Positions 34,729 through 40,410 of a DNA stretch of 64,000 nucleotides are shown here, piece by piece. The stretch covers positions 5,042,501 through 5,106,500 of the forward strand of contig LT629764.1 in assembly GCA_900105225.1 (NCBI GenBank), in the 5' to 3' direction. Each line of letters opens with the position of its first letter. Positions within the stretch are counted from its first letter, which is position 1. The DNA comes from Paenibacillaceae bacterium GAS479. Lineage in GTDB: Bacteria; Bacillota; Bacilli; Paenibacillales; Paenibacillaceae. Position numbers and translations under genes: made by a program. The notes below the pieces were generated by a model, which was not told the origin of the DNA, made no database searches, and was given only the letters and a program-made list of their open reading frames with translations.

Positions 34729-35461
34729 TTACATGAATCCCAACTGGCGGCATAACACAACCAGCTCGTGGATGCCGATAAATTGCCGCCTGATCCTCGT
34801 TCCGATCATCTCCAGCGCATGCTCCGTACCTTTGATCGCATGCTCAACGCCCCGATTGCCCATTGCCTCAACAATTTCTTTCATTCCATCAAGGAAAAAT
34901 ATCGTCGGCCGCAGCGTTCGAATAAGCATAATTTGCCGAAGCTGAAGAGGGGTGTACAGACGATAGCCATTGTGCGAATCACGGACGGGCTGGATGAGTC
35001 CTTCCTTTTCCCAGTGTCGGATCGCAGACGGAGCAACGCCTGCAAGCTCAGCCACTTCACCAATGGCCATGTGAGGCTTGAGCTTCAGGCCATCCAGTTC
35101 GTCCGTCTCAAGCTGAAGAAGCAGCTGTAGGGTGCGGTCAGCGGCAGCTTTATCCTGATGCAGCTTTGCCTGCTCTTGATTGACAAGCCACATCGCCAGT
35201 TCGGCCTTTCCTTCCTGCAGCTTCTTCAGCACTTCAGATGCGTGGCTCATCCCAAATCCTTCATACAACGCCCTTAGGCAGCGGAACCAAGCCAAATCTT
35301 AGGCAGCGGAACCAAGCCAAATGCTCGCTTGTGTACATACGGTATCCATTCGAGGCTCTCTCCGGGAGCGGCACGACTCCCCATGATTCATAATGGCGCA
35401 GCGCACTTGTACTGAGTCCGAGCTCGCGGGCGATATCAATCGGCCTGTATTTGCGATCCAT
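34729..35461 (-). pseudogene. double-MerR regulator, frameshifted by a 25-bp tandem duplication
   Basis: Frame 1 from ATG 35461 gives MDRKYRPIDIARELGLSTSA and LRHYESWGVVPLPERASNGY, a MerR HTH, then LAWFRCLR and a premature end at 35261. Frame 2 repeats LAWFRCLR and continues ALYEGFGMSHASEVLKKLQE to a second MerR HTH (HMAIGEVAELAGVAPSAIRH) and a stop at 34729. Removing one copy of the duplication at 35273-35322 would join both into a 235-aa protein with two MerR HTH domains separated by a helical linker. Whether the frameshift is reversible is open. Confidence 0.85.
35273..35322. repeat. perfect 25-bp tandem duplication inside the MerR gene
   Basis: Positions 35273-35297 and 35298-35322 are identical. 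25 is not a multiple of three, so the duplication shifts the frame by one base. Confidence 0.95.
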
Positions 35462-35501
35462 TTTAGCTAATCTCCTTCGCTAAACTTAACTACCTCTACC
35501 A

Positions 35502-35539
35502 GGGGCCCCCTCACGAAACGGAAATAATCGTACGCTAAG
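35502..35539 (+). repeat. left 38-bp terminal inverted repeat of the Tn3 element
   Basis: Begins GGGGCCCCCTCACG and ends CGTACGCTAAG. The tnpA stop codon (35535-35537) lies inside it, as is common in Tn3 elements. Confidence 0.9.
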
Positions 35540-36234
35540 AGTCATTGACTGAGCGCCGTAGCGGCCTGAACTTGCCGGGTGCCACCTGATTACTCTGTTG
35601 CCATGTGTAATCGCCAGTCAAGTTGATGTGTTCCCATCCGAGTGGTGAAAGGTGTTGTAATAGATTATCAATTGATTGTCCGCGCGCTCGTAACGCCTGG
35701 ATCGCTCTTTCTAAGTAGACTGTATTCCATAATACGATGGCGGCTACCACCAGATTGAGGCCGGAAGCACGATAACGCTGATTCTCGAAACTGCGGTCAC
35801 GCAGTTCGCCCAGTCGATTAAAGAAAACAGCACGGGCTAATGCGTTCTTGGCTTCGCCTTTGTTCAATCCAACTTGTACCCGGCGGCGTAGCTCAACGTA
35901 TTGTAGCCAGTCCAGCGTGAAAAGAGTGCGCTCAATACGTCCGAAAAGCGATTTTGATGAACGGTACGTTCTTCACTATCTGATAATCCTAATTCTCCAA
36001 TAGTCAGCAGCCGTTGGATATGGGCCAACACATGTTTAGCATTCGGAGCGCCGGGTGGCTGCCGTAGCCAAGTCAATGAACTAGTCATGGTACCCTCACG
36101 AACTGATAAGAGGTTGTCCGGCATTAGCCGTTGGTCTTCGGATAAAAAGGCATTCAATGCCTCGTATATATGCCGAGTACCACGGGTAAGCGATTCTGCA
36201 CAAACTCTTTCGATCACCTGTTCGCAAAGCAATG
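35535..36234 (-). pseudogene. tnpA remnant (Tn3 transposase) with internal deletion and frameshift
   Basis: The upstream part (36234-35945) reads RVCAESLTRGTRHIYEALNA, SVREGTMTSSLTWLRQPPGA and HVLAHIQRLLTIGELGL, the N-terminal third of a Tn3 transposase. After HQNRF the frame changes and the text jumps to [20 protein letters not shown] and [20 protein letters not shown], ending with the TnpA C-terminus [18 protein letters not shown]. The catalytic core in between is gone, so no active transposase is made. Confidence 0.9.
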
Positions 36235-36390
36235 ACTTCTTTCGTCCTCGGTACACGCCACGTTGCTTGGCTAATGCAATTCTTTCGCGCTGACGTTCGC
36301 GAATCAAGGCGCTCGAACTTTGCAAAAAGCGAGTAACGCTTCTAATTGCGGTCTTTGAGTATTTTTACCGGATGCTTTGTCCGCAAAGTT
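36235..36390 (-). pseudogene. tnpR remnant (serine resolvase) fused in frame to the tnpA remnant
   Basis: DKASGKNTQRPQLEALLAFC is the resolvase segment after the catalytic region, and after a deletion the frame gives ALIRERQRERIALAKQRGVY and RGRKK, the E-helix and start of the HTH. The reading then passes straight into TnpA sequence (about residue 130 of a normal transposase). The catalytic serine region and the HTH are missing. Confidence 0.8.
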
Positions 36391-36460
36391 CATTATGACA
36401 ACCAGAGCAGAGGGGGATTTACGAACAGGCAGGATAATGTTAAAAATCCAACTCATAAAT

Positions 36461-36480
36461 ACTGACATACAGTTGTCAGT
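36461..36480. promoter_or_regulatory. 20-bp palindrome upstream of the epoxide hydrolase, TetR-like operator
   Basis: ACTGACATACAGTTGTCAGT has perfect 7-bp arms around six bases. It lies 60 bp before the epoxide hydrolase start. No TetR gene remains in the element. Confidence 0.55.
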
Positions 36481-36540
36481 GTTCCACATCTACAATAAAG
36501 CTTAGAACTACATGAATTGATTAGAAGGAGGCTTTCATAA

Positions 36541-37734
36541 ATGGCTCAATCCAAACAACAACTGGAATGTAAAGAAACTACGCCCAACGAGATCCGGCCG
36601 TTCCGCATCGAAATTCCCCAGGCAGACCTTGAAGATCTGCGAGAACGACTTGTCCATACCCGTTGGCCCGCCCAATTGCCCGGGGCCGGGTGGAACCGTG
36701 GGATACCGGTTACTTATCTTAAAAATCTTACTGAGTACTGGCAGACCGATTATAACTGGCGTGAAAACGAGGCCAAGCTCAATGAATTTCCACAATTCAT
36801 TACGGAGATCGATGGACAGATTATCCACTTCCTACATGTAAGGTCGCCCGAACCTAACGCTCTTCCATTGATTATCACGCACAGCTGGCCGAACTCAGTC
36901 GTCGAATTCATGAAAATAATAGGTCCGCTGACTAATCCAAGGGCACACGGCGGAGATCCGGACAAGGCTTTCCATGTGGTTGCGCCTTCTATCCCCGGAT
37001 TTGCCTTTTCGCAGTTTTCCGAGCCAGCTGACGAAACACCATGGAATATCGCGCGAGTCGCCCGAACATGGGCAGAACTGATGCGGAGACTAGGATACGA
37101 TCGCTATGGTGCTCACGGCAATGACGCGGGTGCATTGGTCTCCCCGGAACTCGCAGTCATGGATTCTGAGCATATGATCGGTGTGCACATTACCGGTGGG
37201 CTAGGCATCCCTACAGGCGATCCCGACGAACTGGAGGATCTGACAGAGAAGGACCGTGTAGAATTAGAACAAATGACAGAACTTTTCGCCGGGGGAAGTG
37301 GCTATGCCTCGTATCTTACCCATCGACCACAAACGCTCAGTTACGGGTTTAATGATTCTCCAGTCGCTCAACTAGCCTACCTTGTAGAAAGGTTCAAAGA
37401 GTTCGATGGTTGGCCGGGTGCCGGATTTGAACCGCCTAGCGAACCCATCGACAAAGATCAACTGCTCACGAATGCGACATTATACTGGCTGACAAGGACA
37501 GCAGGGTCCTCGTCTTGGACTTACTATGAAGGTGCTGCAGGCTTGCCAATTGATCAAACCAAAGTGCCGACTGGAGTTTCCCATGGAGGAGGTCCTGTAT
37601 TCCGTCGCCTGGCCGAACGAAAGAACAAAGTCGTTCACTGGTCGGATAATAAAAGCGGCAGCCATATGGTTGCTATGGCAGAACCGGAATCACTCGTTCA
37701 TGATATCAGGGAGTTCTTTAGTAAGCTACGCTAG
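36541..37734 (+). CDS. epoxide hydrolase (EHN plus alpha/beta-hydrolase domains)
   Basis: 397 aa, full length. The N-terminal EHN domain (about 18-125) starts IRPFRIEIPQADLEDLRERL and ends at YW..YNWR. In the hydrolase domain HSWPNS (114-119) supplies the oxyanion loop, D195 in GNDAGA is the nucleophile and H375 in SGSHMVAMAEPE the general base. The motif HSWPNS replaces the usual HGWPGS and GNDAGA the usual GGDWGA, so substrate scope may differ from known enzymes. The ATG at 36541 follows an AGAAGGAGG site. It is the only intact gene of the Tn3 element, hence cargo. Confidence 0.88.
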   Translation: MAQSKQQLECKETTPNEIRPFRIEIPQADLEDLRERLVHTRWPAQLPGAGWNRGIPVTYLKNLTEYWQTDYNWRENEAKLNEFPQFITEIDGQIIHFLHVRSPEPNALPLIITHSWPNSVVEFMKIIGPLTNPRAHGGDPDKAFHVVAPSIPGFAFSQFSEPADETPWNIARVARTWAELMRRLGYDRYGAHGNDAGALVSPELAVMDSEHMIGVHITGGLGIPTGDPDELEDLTEKDRVELEQMTELFAGGSGYASYLTHRPQTLSYGFNDSPVAQLAYLVERFKEFDGWPGAGFEPPSEPIDKDQLLTNATLYWLTRTAGSSSWTYYEGAAGLPIDQTKVPTGVSHGGGPVFRRLAERKNKVVHWSDNKSGSHMVAMAEPESLVHDIREFFSKLR

Positions 37735-37795
37735 CATTCCTGTAGAGCGTTAAATTTCCGCTATCTTAGGAGGACGCTCTACTATGAATGAATTG

Positions 37796-37833
37796 CTTAG
37801 CGTACGATTTTTTCCGTTTCGTGAGGTGACCAC
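37796..37833 (-). repeat. right 38-bp terminal inverted repeat of the Tn3 element
   Basis: Reads CTTAGCGTACGATTTTTTCC at its inner end on the plus strand. Just before it, GTAGAGCGT and ACGCTCTAC (37742-37783) form a 9-bp stem that may end transcription of the hydrolase gene. Confidence 0.88.
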
Positions 37834-38048
37834 TACCATAGCAGAAGCACTCCAAGCGACGCAAATCCTCCTGTAAAAGATTAAAGCTCTTTGACAGGGT
37901 TTGATCCAACTTAAAGCTTCATCAGCCAGGCGGAATGGTTCCGAAGCTTATCACTTTCATCAATGTGATAAAGTAGGGTTGTATCCAGTCGAGCCCAATG
38001 GAATAGCCAATTTTTCCAGCTGAGAAGCCTTGAGGAGGAAGCAGATTT

Positions 38049-40410
38049 ATGATTGATACGATCCGCATCCGCGGAGCCAAGGAAAACAACTTGAAAAACA
38101 TTGATGTTGATATTCCGAAGTATAAACTTATTGTTGTGACGGGACCATCAGGTTCTGGTAAATCGACACTTGCGCTCGATATTCTTCAGCGGGAATGTCA
38201 GCGCCAGTACATGGAATCAAGCGGCCTGTCGGGAGAATCGATTCCGAAGCCGAAGGTCGCATCAATCACAGGTTTGTCTCCAGCCATTGCAGTTGGACAG
38301 CATGCAGCGAACCGCAATCCGAGATCGACGGTTGGTACGGTGACTGATCTTTAGACTTATCTAAGACTCATTTGCGAAAAAAAAGGGAAGCGCCATTGCC
38401 AAAGCTGCGGCGAAGATATGATGGGCGCCCCAGAAAATGGGGCCTCCGAGATCGCTTGCCCGTCATGTGGTGAAATTCATCGTGCTCTCGGAAAAGCGGA
38501 TTATTCTTATAACACCCCGTCAGGCGCATGCAAAAGCTGCAGCGGACTAGGAAGCATTGTCGATATTGATATTGAAGCGGTGTTTGATCGGAGCAAAAGT
38601 ATTCGCGGCGTCGCTGTAGCGTTCTGGTTTGAAGCGTTGGCGGAATACAATGCCTCCATTCTAGCGGCAGCAGGCAAACATTACGGACTGCCGATGAATA
38701 CTTCTCAGCCAGTAGGCGAGTACAGCCAGGCGGAATGGGATCTTCTCCTTTATGGAGTGGAGAACCCGGAGTTCTCCCGACACTTCCCCGATCAGCCGCT
38801 TCCGAAATCGGTTGGTAAAGGTCGCTTTAAAGGCGTTCTGACCGGAATGTGGCAACGTTACAGGGAGAAGGACGGCCAGTCCGGCGAGGCCGTCTTTTTC
38901 CGGAGTATGCCTTGCACAGATTGCCGGAGTGAACGGCTGAACCCGGTGAGCCGATCCGTGACCGCCTACGGCCGAACACTTCCTGAGCTGTCTCGAATAT
39001 CGCTGTGGGAACTGTCGGCCTGGCTTCAAGAGCCGTATCTCCTGTCCGTAGATAGTCAAGATGATCTGCTTGCGGCGGTACTGCATGACATGATGGTCAA
39101 AGTTCGTCGCATCGAGGATGTCGGCCTTGGTTATTTGACGCTCAATCGTCAGTCGGTATCGTTGTCAGGGGGAGAAGCACAGAGGCTTCGATTGGCAACG
39201 ATATTAGGTTCAGGATTAACCGGCGTACTCTATCTGCTTGACGAACCGACGACGGGGCTGCATGCCAAAGATACAGCTGGGCTCGTGCAAGTGATCAAGG
39301 AACTGCGGGATCTCGGTAATACAGTGCTGCTGATCGGCATAATTTGAAGGGGATTACGGCTTCTTTTCCACTCGGCTGTTTAACGGCAGTATCCGGAGTA
39401 TCTGGTTCTGGGAAATCTACACTCGTATTCGATCTGCTCGCCTCCGCTGTGCCTGGGCAGGGCTCATTCCGCAACATTGAGGGCTGCGCACAGATCAGCG
39501 GTATGGAACGAGTAGACAGCTTGATCACCGTTGATCAGAGCCCGCTCTCCCGTATGCAGCGTTCAAGCGTTTCCACTTATATGGATTTGTTCGCCTTGCT
39601 CCGCAAAGCTTATGCCGCACTGCCTGAAGCAAAAAGTCGGAAGCTAGTGGAGAAGCATTTCTCCTTTAATACACCAGGAGGACGCTGCGACCGTTGCGAA
39701 GGTTTGGGCCAGGTGACCGTTGATATGCATTTCCTGTCCCACCTGCAAGTCGTCTGCCCGGAATGCAGGGGCAAACGTTTCAAGCCCGAGGTGCTGGAAG
39801 TACGCTATAAGGAACGCGCCATCTCTGACTTCCTCGAGCTCAGTCTGGAGGAAAGCCAGCCGTTGCTGCAGGAGAACAAAAAGATGAGCGCTCTGCTTCA
39901 GCTGCTCGCTGACATTGGTCTCGGCTATTTGCAGTGGGGCCAATCCGTCACGACGTTGTCCGGCGGAGAGGGCCAGCGGCTTAAGCTGGCTAAAGAGCTC
40001 AGTGCTCCGGCGAAGGGCCACACGCTGTATTTGCTCGATGAACCTTCAAGCGGCTTGCATCCTATCGATGTCGAGAAGCTGCATCTGCTGCTCAGCCGAC
40101 TTGTCGATGCTGCAATACGGTCGTTATGGTTGAGCATAATACAGAGCTGATCGCAGCGGCTGATTGGGTGTTTGATCTTGGTCCCGGCGGCGGAGATGCA
40201 GGGGGCAAGCTGATCGCGGCCGGAACGCCGGAGCTGCTTACCAGCGACAGTCGTTCCGTGACTGGCGCTAGCCTTGGCATTCGAGCGGCTTCCAGCAGCT
40301 CAAACGCTGACTTCAGGAGAAAAGGACATATGTCCTTTTCTCCTTTTCCCTTTGCGATTAAAGTAGAAACTAAGGTGTTCATCGCAGACAGAATGGGGAT
40401 GGCAAGATGA
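38049..40410 (+). pseudogene. UvrA-like ATPase (short UvrA paralogue), inactivated
   Basis: The frame opens IRIRGAKENNLKNIDVDIPK with Walker A GPSGSGKSTLALDI and Cys pairs CQSCGE and CPSCGE. Lesion 1 is a TAG at 38352-38354 in GTVTDL*TYLRL, where relatives have Tyr. The signature LSGGEAQRLRLATILGSGL and Walker B YLLDEPTTGLH follow. Lesion 2 is near 39343: the frame breaks after LGNTVLLI and resumes as HNLKGITASFPLGCLTAVSG, with about 60-100 residues lost. Lesion 3 is a one-base loss near 40113 before VVMVEHNTELIAAADWVFDL. Intact members are class II UvrA proteins (about 750 aa) linked to drug resistance or repair. Confidence 0.9.

Follow-up and report, generated by a model that had tools for sequence, protein, structure and literature searches.

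The mcr-5 transposon is known as Tn6452 and is of the Tn3 type (PMC9462459). In its sequence (AP021941.1, L237), a cargo that includes a colistin-resistance gene is followed by tnpR and tnpA, both annotated as whole genes, and compared with the consensus of the group, one of the two Tn3-family ends has 4 and the other 5 deviating positions out of 38. Organic catabolite degradation is named among the functions of Tn3 passenger genes (PMC7157771). Tn3 ends are also found around unrelated DNA in the transposase-less elements called TIMEs, among which an integron mobilization unit is counted; movement of TIMEs and TIME-COMPs by TnpA in trans has been reported (PMC13367494). As for integrons themselves, Firmicutes are listed among the phyla that carry them (PMC8618304) and integrons in this phylum are thus not new.

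We analysed a window of 64,000 nucleotides, by which we mean the whole stretch of DNA under study, from Paenibacillaceae bacterium GAS479. Positions 35502-37833 of this window form a Tn3-family element of 2,332 bp with both ends counted (Table 1). Our main reading, to which we assign a probability of roughly 0.85, is that this unit is a defective Tn3 element of the mcr-5 transposon group that was, most simply, inserted after the split from the sister species G007 and that carries an intact hydrolase gene with a palindrome of its own; the reading would further comprise non-autonomy of the unit, a repressor and a slot for cassettes.

Table 1. Features of the Tn3-family unit in the window (upper rows) and recombinase genes of array loci in relatives (last row).
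Feature	Position	Strand	Basis
Left copy of the TACCA target duplication	35497..35501	.	Sequence; occurs once in G007, the sister species
Left (tnpA-side) 38-bp terminal inverted repeat	35502..35539	+	Matches the tnpA-side end of L062
tnpA relic, C-terminal part (~aa 854-983 of 988, mcr-5 transposon numbering)	35551..35942	-	Pfam DDE_Tnp_Tn3 5e-31; start by DNA alignment
tnpA relic from the N-terminal third (~aa 160-250)	35946..36217	-	82% DNA identity to L062; comparison with mcr-5 transposon
tnpR (serine resolvase) relic, near C-terminus	36228..36319	-	88% DNA identity to L149; 74% aa identity to mcr-5 transposon TnpR 120-153
tnpR relic, near N-terminus	36325..36387	-	94% DNA identity to L062; mcr-5 transposon TnpR 31-53
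Backbone stretch common to L062, candidate res region	36388..36421	.	Alignment; homology ends in the following half site
attC-like half site (L'-R') CGAACAGGCAGGATAATGTTAA, immediately preceding the cargo	36422..36443	+	PWM; random-segment control
Operator-like palindrome ACTGACATACAGTTGTCAGT	36461..36480	.	Counterparts before 3/11 epoxide hydrolase homologues (L007, L008, L009)
EHN-type alpha/beta hydrolase of 397 aa, the one gene left intact	36541..37734	+	Pfam EHN 2e-39, Abhydrolase_1 3e-6; PDB 5f4z E 5e-120
Scar, left end of an IS110-family element (28-nt tip plus RBS/start region, middle deleted)	37735..37788	+	Tip pattern; IS110 ORFs
Right (passenger-side) 38-bp terminal inverted repeat	37796..37833	-	Sequence
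Right copy of the TACCA target duplication	37834..37838	.	Sequence
280-aa recombinase, within arrays or at their margin	L278:11062-11904, L279:8927-9769, L280:3290-4132, L282:5306-6148, L283:9503-10345, L285:177-1019		

The two 38-bp ends are of the GGGG...TAAG type and identical at 34 of 38 positions, with GGGG at the tip of the left and GTGG at the tip of the right end, and both are flanked by TACCA, as claimed by the first-pass annotation; the 2,332 bp given there as the length of the interior are correct as a number, but they measure the entire element. The unit is present in one copy in its own genome (5.52 Mb, one contig). When its flanks were fused at a single TACCA, matches were obtained in five of eight genomes of the genus, own counted: in G007, 702 of 800 positions (88%) align across the junction with one TACCA and without a gap, and in G006 the fused flanks align at 69%. 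The site of G007 contains neither the element nor the hydrolase, and is thus not a case of the hydrolase standing at this place without the end repeats, which according to the first-pass annotation would have refuted mobile cargo. In the collection of named genomes, the core of the Tn3 ends was found in 101 stretches, spread over many phyla, and it occurs in 20 of 394 genomes of the family, own counted. The named Paenibacillus records L031, L067, L089, L101 and L104 fall on the same places as the family genomes G354, G380, G342, G176 and G339, from which we take the family to be Paenibacillaceae. Because of the gapless alignment to the empty site in G007 and the recurrence of the end core in 101 stretches, we do not regard the insertion as a chance pattern, and since G007 has the empty site, the insertion is most simply placed after the split from this species. 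The element copied TACCA upon its insertion, some 36 bp ahead of a MerR-type gene. In this MerR-type gene (34729-35461), the reading frame is destroyed by a tandem duplication of exactly 25 bp (35273-35322), and the gene at the same place in G007 is intact with 235 aa. A UvrA-like gene (38049-40150) is disrupted by a frameshift as well as a premature stop; in the sister species, it is open as far as the fetched locus reaches.

The transposition genes had been described as scars, and we found tnpR and tnpA as four minus-strand pieces with at least three internal deletions between them, overall 82-95% like one of two loci from relatives, L062, an element of Paenibacillus eucommiae, or L149. The C-terminal piece of tnpA shows 95% amino acid identity to L062 and 80% to residues 879-983 of the mcr-5 transposon TnpA, and it covers positions 303-389 of PF01526 in its ORF and 276-389 in a six-frame search. 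Since transposase and resolvase are both in pieces, the unit is a defective member of the Tn3 family. This qualifies the earlier description of the unit as complete, and a second Tn3 transposase was not found in the own genome, in which the relic is the sole match to the family. Most of tnpR and tnpA was lost through the internal deletions, and the unit would now be non-autonomous and move only if a related TnpA enters the cell.

A plasmid search returned at least 5000 records at 60-80% identity; the mcr-5 transposon is one of its best matches, and Tn6452 is the closest named relative found. The unit resembles it in the order of cargo, tnpR and tnpA, in the type of the ends and in the TnpA C-terminus, whereas tnpR and tnpA of Tn6452 are whole and its cargo is a different one. 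The resemblance to L062 is closer in the TnpA C-terminus and extends to the same ends and the same position of the half site at the backbone junction discussed below. L062 has two ends and a TTAAA duplication but, unlike the unit, is about 7 kb long and has another cargo; its tnpA is spread across several ORFs, and among its listed ORFs of at least 90 aa there is no tnpR. The transposase part of L062 was matched in 36 of 394 family genomes at E <= 1e-30, own counted; among the matches listed, only the own genome (95%) and G313 (88%) have a close one, and none of the others exceeds 63%.

As in TIMEs and the integron mobilization unit, the Tn3 ends are here without a working transposase. The nearly intact ends and the perfect duplication, together with the transposition in trans reported for TIMEs and TIME-COMPs (PMC13367494), would agree with a TIME-like non-autonomous derivative that is still moved by TnpA supplied in trans, but the unit is single-copy in a genome in which no second Tn3 transposase was found, its right tip reads GTGG and its insertion may predate the deletions. 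We consider such a derivative rather unlikely. In contrast to TIME-COMPs, which are bounded by two miniature elements, the locus is a single unit with relics and one cargo gene. Our conclusion is that it is a new, defective element belonging to a group of transposons already known, and that its cargo is uncommon.

This cargo, the hydrolase gene, is the only intact gene of the unit and its ORF is open from end to end, as had been claimed. Homologues of the protein were found in 17 of 59 genomes searched, own counted, the others being at most 53% alike, and at E <= 1e-110 the own genome was the only one of 398 genomes of the phylum with a match. The best match in the collections searched is a protein of Nonomuraea (L288), which is 67.5% identical in the search and 68% in the alignment. 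The nucleophile D195 within the motif GNDAG and H375 are kept in the hydrolase. The HGXP motif, however, reads HSWP at residues 114-117, and there is a gap at the aligned place of the triad acid, as positioned in the Aspergillus niger enzyme. The Nonomuraea protein has the same GNDAG, the same HSWP and the same gap. Because these deviations are found in both proteins, they look like a trait of a subfamily rather than decay, and this bacillus and an actinomycete may have in common an EHN subfamily that is marked by HSWP and lacks the acid where it is usually found. An EHN-fold enzyme of another activity, or even a scaffold, instead of an epoxide hydrolase is a serious candidate, if at somewhat less than even odds: the two deviations recur in the 68%-identical protein and neither of the two proteins belongs to an NCBIfam family, but the hydrolase retains nucleophile and histidine, matches Pfam EHN at 2e-39 and is close to PDB 5f4z and 4i19. 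Since two active-site features deviate, we use the original designation as epoxide hydrolase at the level of the family only, where it fits the EHN domain and the alpha/beta hydrolase fold by sequence; as a statement on the activity, the designation is unsure. The first-pass annotation had also called a catabolic or detoxifying epoxide hydrolase unusual for a Tn3 element; with regard to Tn3 elements in general, a catabolic cargo is not new (PMC7157771).

The palindrome upstream of the hydrolase gene, which had been noticed before as operator-like, is indeed present. Like the hydrolase gene of the window, which has a perfect TGACA-n(4-10)-TGTCA upstream, other homologues were examined for this pattern; it was present within 220 nt upstream of three of eleven other homologues (L007, L008 and L009; 46% alike), the remaining eight reaching at most 8 of 10 matches, and none of 2000 random 200-nt segments reached 10 of 10. 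Since it recurs before three of eleven homologues, the palindrome is a credible putative operator. The gene beside the homologue looks WYL-type in L008 and L009 (Pfam run for L008 only). We had also considered the palindrome as a res site, which was ruled out by its recurrence before epoxide hydrolase homologues with no Tn3 end in view. The hydrolase gene would be transcribed from its own promoter, with the palindrome overlapping the likely -35 box and serving as the site of a repressor that the unit does not carry.

Directly before the cargo lies a motif resembling the L'-R' half of an attC site, which had been spotted by eye ahead of testing. The first-pass annotation had noticed neither this half site nor the IS110 scar nor the cassette arrays of relatives. 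Using a PWM built from 36 L'-R' halves of the array sites described below, it was the best match on both strands of the 64-kb window with 14.1 bits, the next one having 9.6. As a control, we used 3000 random segments of family DNA without arrays, the tested stretch extending from the cargo start to the tnpR relic; the score of the window was reached by none of them. The half site of L062 scored 24.7 bits, also reached by none of the 3000 segments, with a one-base gap that was allowed post hoc and without which it scores 3.8, and the half site of L149 is weak with 7.9 bits (54 of 3000 segments). The opposite strands gave -1.7, 1.5 and -0.5 bits for the window, L062 and L149, respectively. Taken alone, the half site of the window is not significant genome-wide, with a null maximum of 13.0 +/- 2.9 per 64 kb (largest 26.5), and the best score in the reversed window was 15.1.

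The homology of the backbone between the window and L062 continues through the half site and then stops. The cargo of L062 consists of a beta-lactamase-family serine hydrolase and two-component genes (the latter named by eye), and that of L149 of an OYE-type flavin oxidoreductase and TetR; in all three loci, the cargo reads towards the passenger-side end. In L149, for which only this Tn3 end is present within the 19 kb fetched, the backbone beside the weak half site differs from that of the window and L062, and a strict array core next to the Tn3 end is separated by 40 nt from the end of the cargo. The 3' core of the L062 cargo is degenerate and fails the strict pattern, and at the 3' end of the hydrolase gene no attC-like core is recognisable, the only similar sequence being CGCTAG next to the IS110 scar. 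The hydrolase gene thus resembles integron gene cassettes in the half site that precedes it, and differs from them in having no attC site at its 3' end. The element likely has a cassette slot, bounded by the res region on one side and by the passenger-side end on the other, and we infer, with less certainty than for the unit itself, that the hydrolase gene entered it as an integron-like cassette.

An acquisition by ordinary Tn3 routes, i.e. by deletion or illegitimate recombination next to res, with the half site as a chance match or a remnant of res, falls in our estimate not far short of an even chance. The three deletions are illegitimate events within this very unit, the score of the window is close to the null maximum for 64 kb, the half site of L149 is weak beside a differing backbone, and the hydrolase gene is without a 3' core; these points have to be weighed against the common backbone junction at which the half sites of the window and of L062 lie despite unrelated cargo, their strand-correct scores that no random segment attained, and the strict core near the end of the L149 cargo. 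If the gene did enter as a cassette, the half site before it would be the cassette joint and, with less certainty, Paenibacillaceae members of this Tn3 group may fill the slot with integron-like cassettes. The hydrolase was absent from the cassette arrays fetched. An epoxide hydrolase gene within an array was considered as a candidate, but this paralogue, 44% alike and about 5 kb inside the solo end of L157, reads away from the end and provides no evidence.

The tail of the hydrolase gene had been a candidate for an attC hairpin, as about 31 nt are identical to the neighbour of an attC-like site in L173, but a family-wide search identified it as the tip of an IS110-family element. With up to 3 mismatches, the tip pattern occurs in 41 of 394 family genomes, own counted, and IS110 transposase ORFs lie behind such tips (Pfam DEDD_Tnp_IS110 in three of three tested). 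The hairpin of tail and end (z of -2.8 and -2.9) is explained by this tip. The scar sits against CGCTAG, and the proposed order of events is that an IS110-family element inserted at the 3' end of the hydrolase gene later on and was then reduced to the scar. Elsewhere (L173, L263 and L267), tips of this family abut CGATAG or CGTTAG boxes of attC-like sites, as if these boxes were targets of IS110-family elements.

The array sites on which the PWM is based were found in relatives. We inspected 30 end loci, 28 of which are the places besides the own two from the search of 394 genomes, and two more were added. A terminator-like tail was seen by eye inside the end in 27 of the 30 loci (two of these cut short), and in 12 the distance from the Tn3 end to a core CTAWCGn(2-8)CGTTAG is at most about 150 nt. 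We searched 28 genomes for the strict core CTATCGTn(1-3)CCGTTAG, namely 22 that contain this Tn3 end, the own genome and five members of the genus that lack the end; it was present in 24 of them, with up to 166 copies in G380 versus 0-2 per genome for the reversed pattern. In 19 array loci chosen for having cores, we counted 77 strict cores, 35 of which have an L'-R' 25-105 nt downstream, compared to one upstream and one on the opposite strand; 42 lie behind an ORF on their own strand, compared to one with an ORF on the opposite strand only. Cores have a single orientation in 18 of the 19 loci. The sites show the layout R''-L''-hairpin-L'-R', and the genes are cassette-like (GNAT, glyoxalase, GrpB and similar, named by eye). 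RNAalifold on 17 sites recovered the R''-L'' hairpin only (six pairs, one with a two-sided change) and no covariation support for the whole attC-like hairpin, and single folds of five sites gave z of -2.5 to -4.5. Array loci in Paenibacillaceae include L168, L169, L173, L175, L278-L280 and L282-L287, among others, and a number of arrays have a solo copy of this Tn3 end within them or next to them. The own genome contains no array: there are 4 strict cores against 0 in the control, and with a looser core 6 scattered matches (L195-L200) against 4 in the reversed control. In L163 (1993-2080), a different Tn3-type end (GGGGTACCCCTAGCAAAACGCG...) lies directly inside the solo end, and group II intron matches occur within array locus L169 (4333-6855); one of the loci led to G418, which is a Neobacillus record.

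The arrays resemble integrons in their attC-like sites behind genes and their mostly uniform orientation, but differ from them in the recombinase. A 280-aa Xer-like tyrosine recombinase was present in six of seven regions listed gene by gene (76-84% identical to the first); these seven come from ten regions fetched for cores or nearby recombinase matches and are thus partly chosen for the recombinase. The four recombinases tested reach 89-93 bits against TIGR02249 (IntI) with its cut-off of 265, and their position suggests that they work the array sites. IntI itself was dismissed as the recombinase of the arrays: TIGR02249 matches were found in all 23 genomes as well as in all 14 controls, and in none of the 23 genomes or the controls over the cut-off. 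The best scorers adjoin an IS91-type transposase gene (L201 and L202, by eye), lie on a 4-kb contig (L205) or adjoin a second kind of array (L203, L204 and L206). This second kind, with sites like TTTCAYATAACGTTCTTG...GTGTTATGTGAT (L203:8000-18001, L204:1-9600 and L206:1-9300), adjoins a tyrosine recombinase of 332-381 aa that scores 193-223 bits on NF040815 (cut-off 220).

By title or opening of the abstract, no report of such arrays in Paenibacillus appeared in the full-text literature searched, which excludes subscription papers and preprints, and in those passages that were read, mentions of Paenibacillus are limited to a distant protein match and a single isolate with zero scores. Tentatively, and with a probability somewhat below one half, the arrays may represent an undescribed integron-like system of the Paenibacillaceae with the 280-aa Xer-type recombinase, devoid of an IntI domain; a Tn3 group would have a docking half site of this system beside res and thereby shuttle single cassettes, such as this hydrolase, from chromosome to chromosome, and the solo ends in and beside arrays would be traces of exchange between the two. 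The arrays, which lie mostly outside the unit, are more surprising than the unit, which taken alone is one more defective Tn3 element. It is significant for the link that it suggests, within a family of Bacillota, between large integron-like cassette arrays and a Tn3 group that is widespread. If this link is true, the transposon would load and unload single cassettes without an integrase of its own, and the arrays would be a tractable integron-like system operated by a recombinase without an IntI domain.
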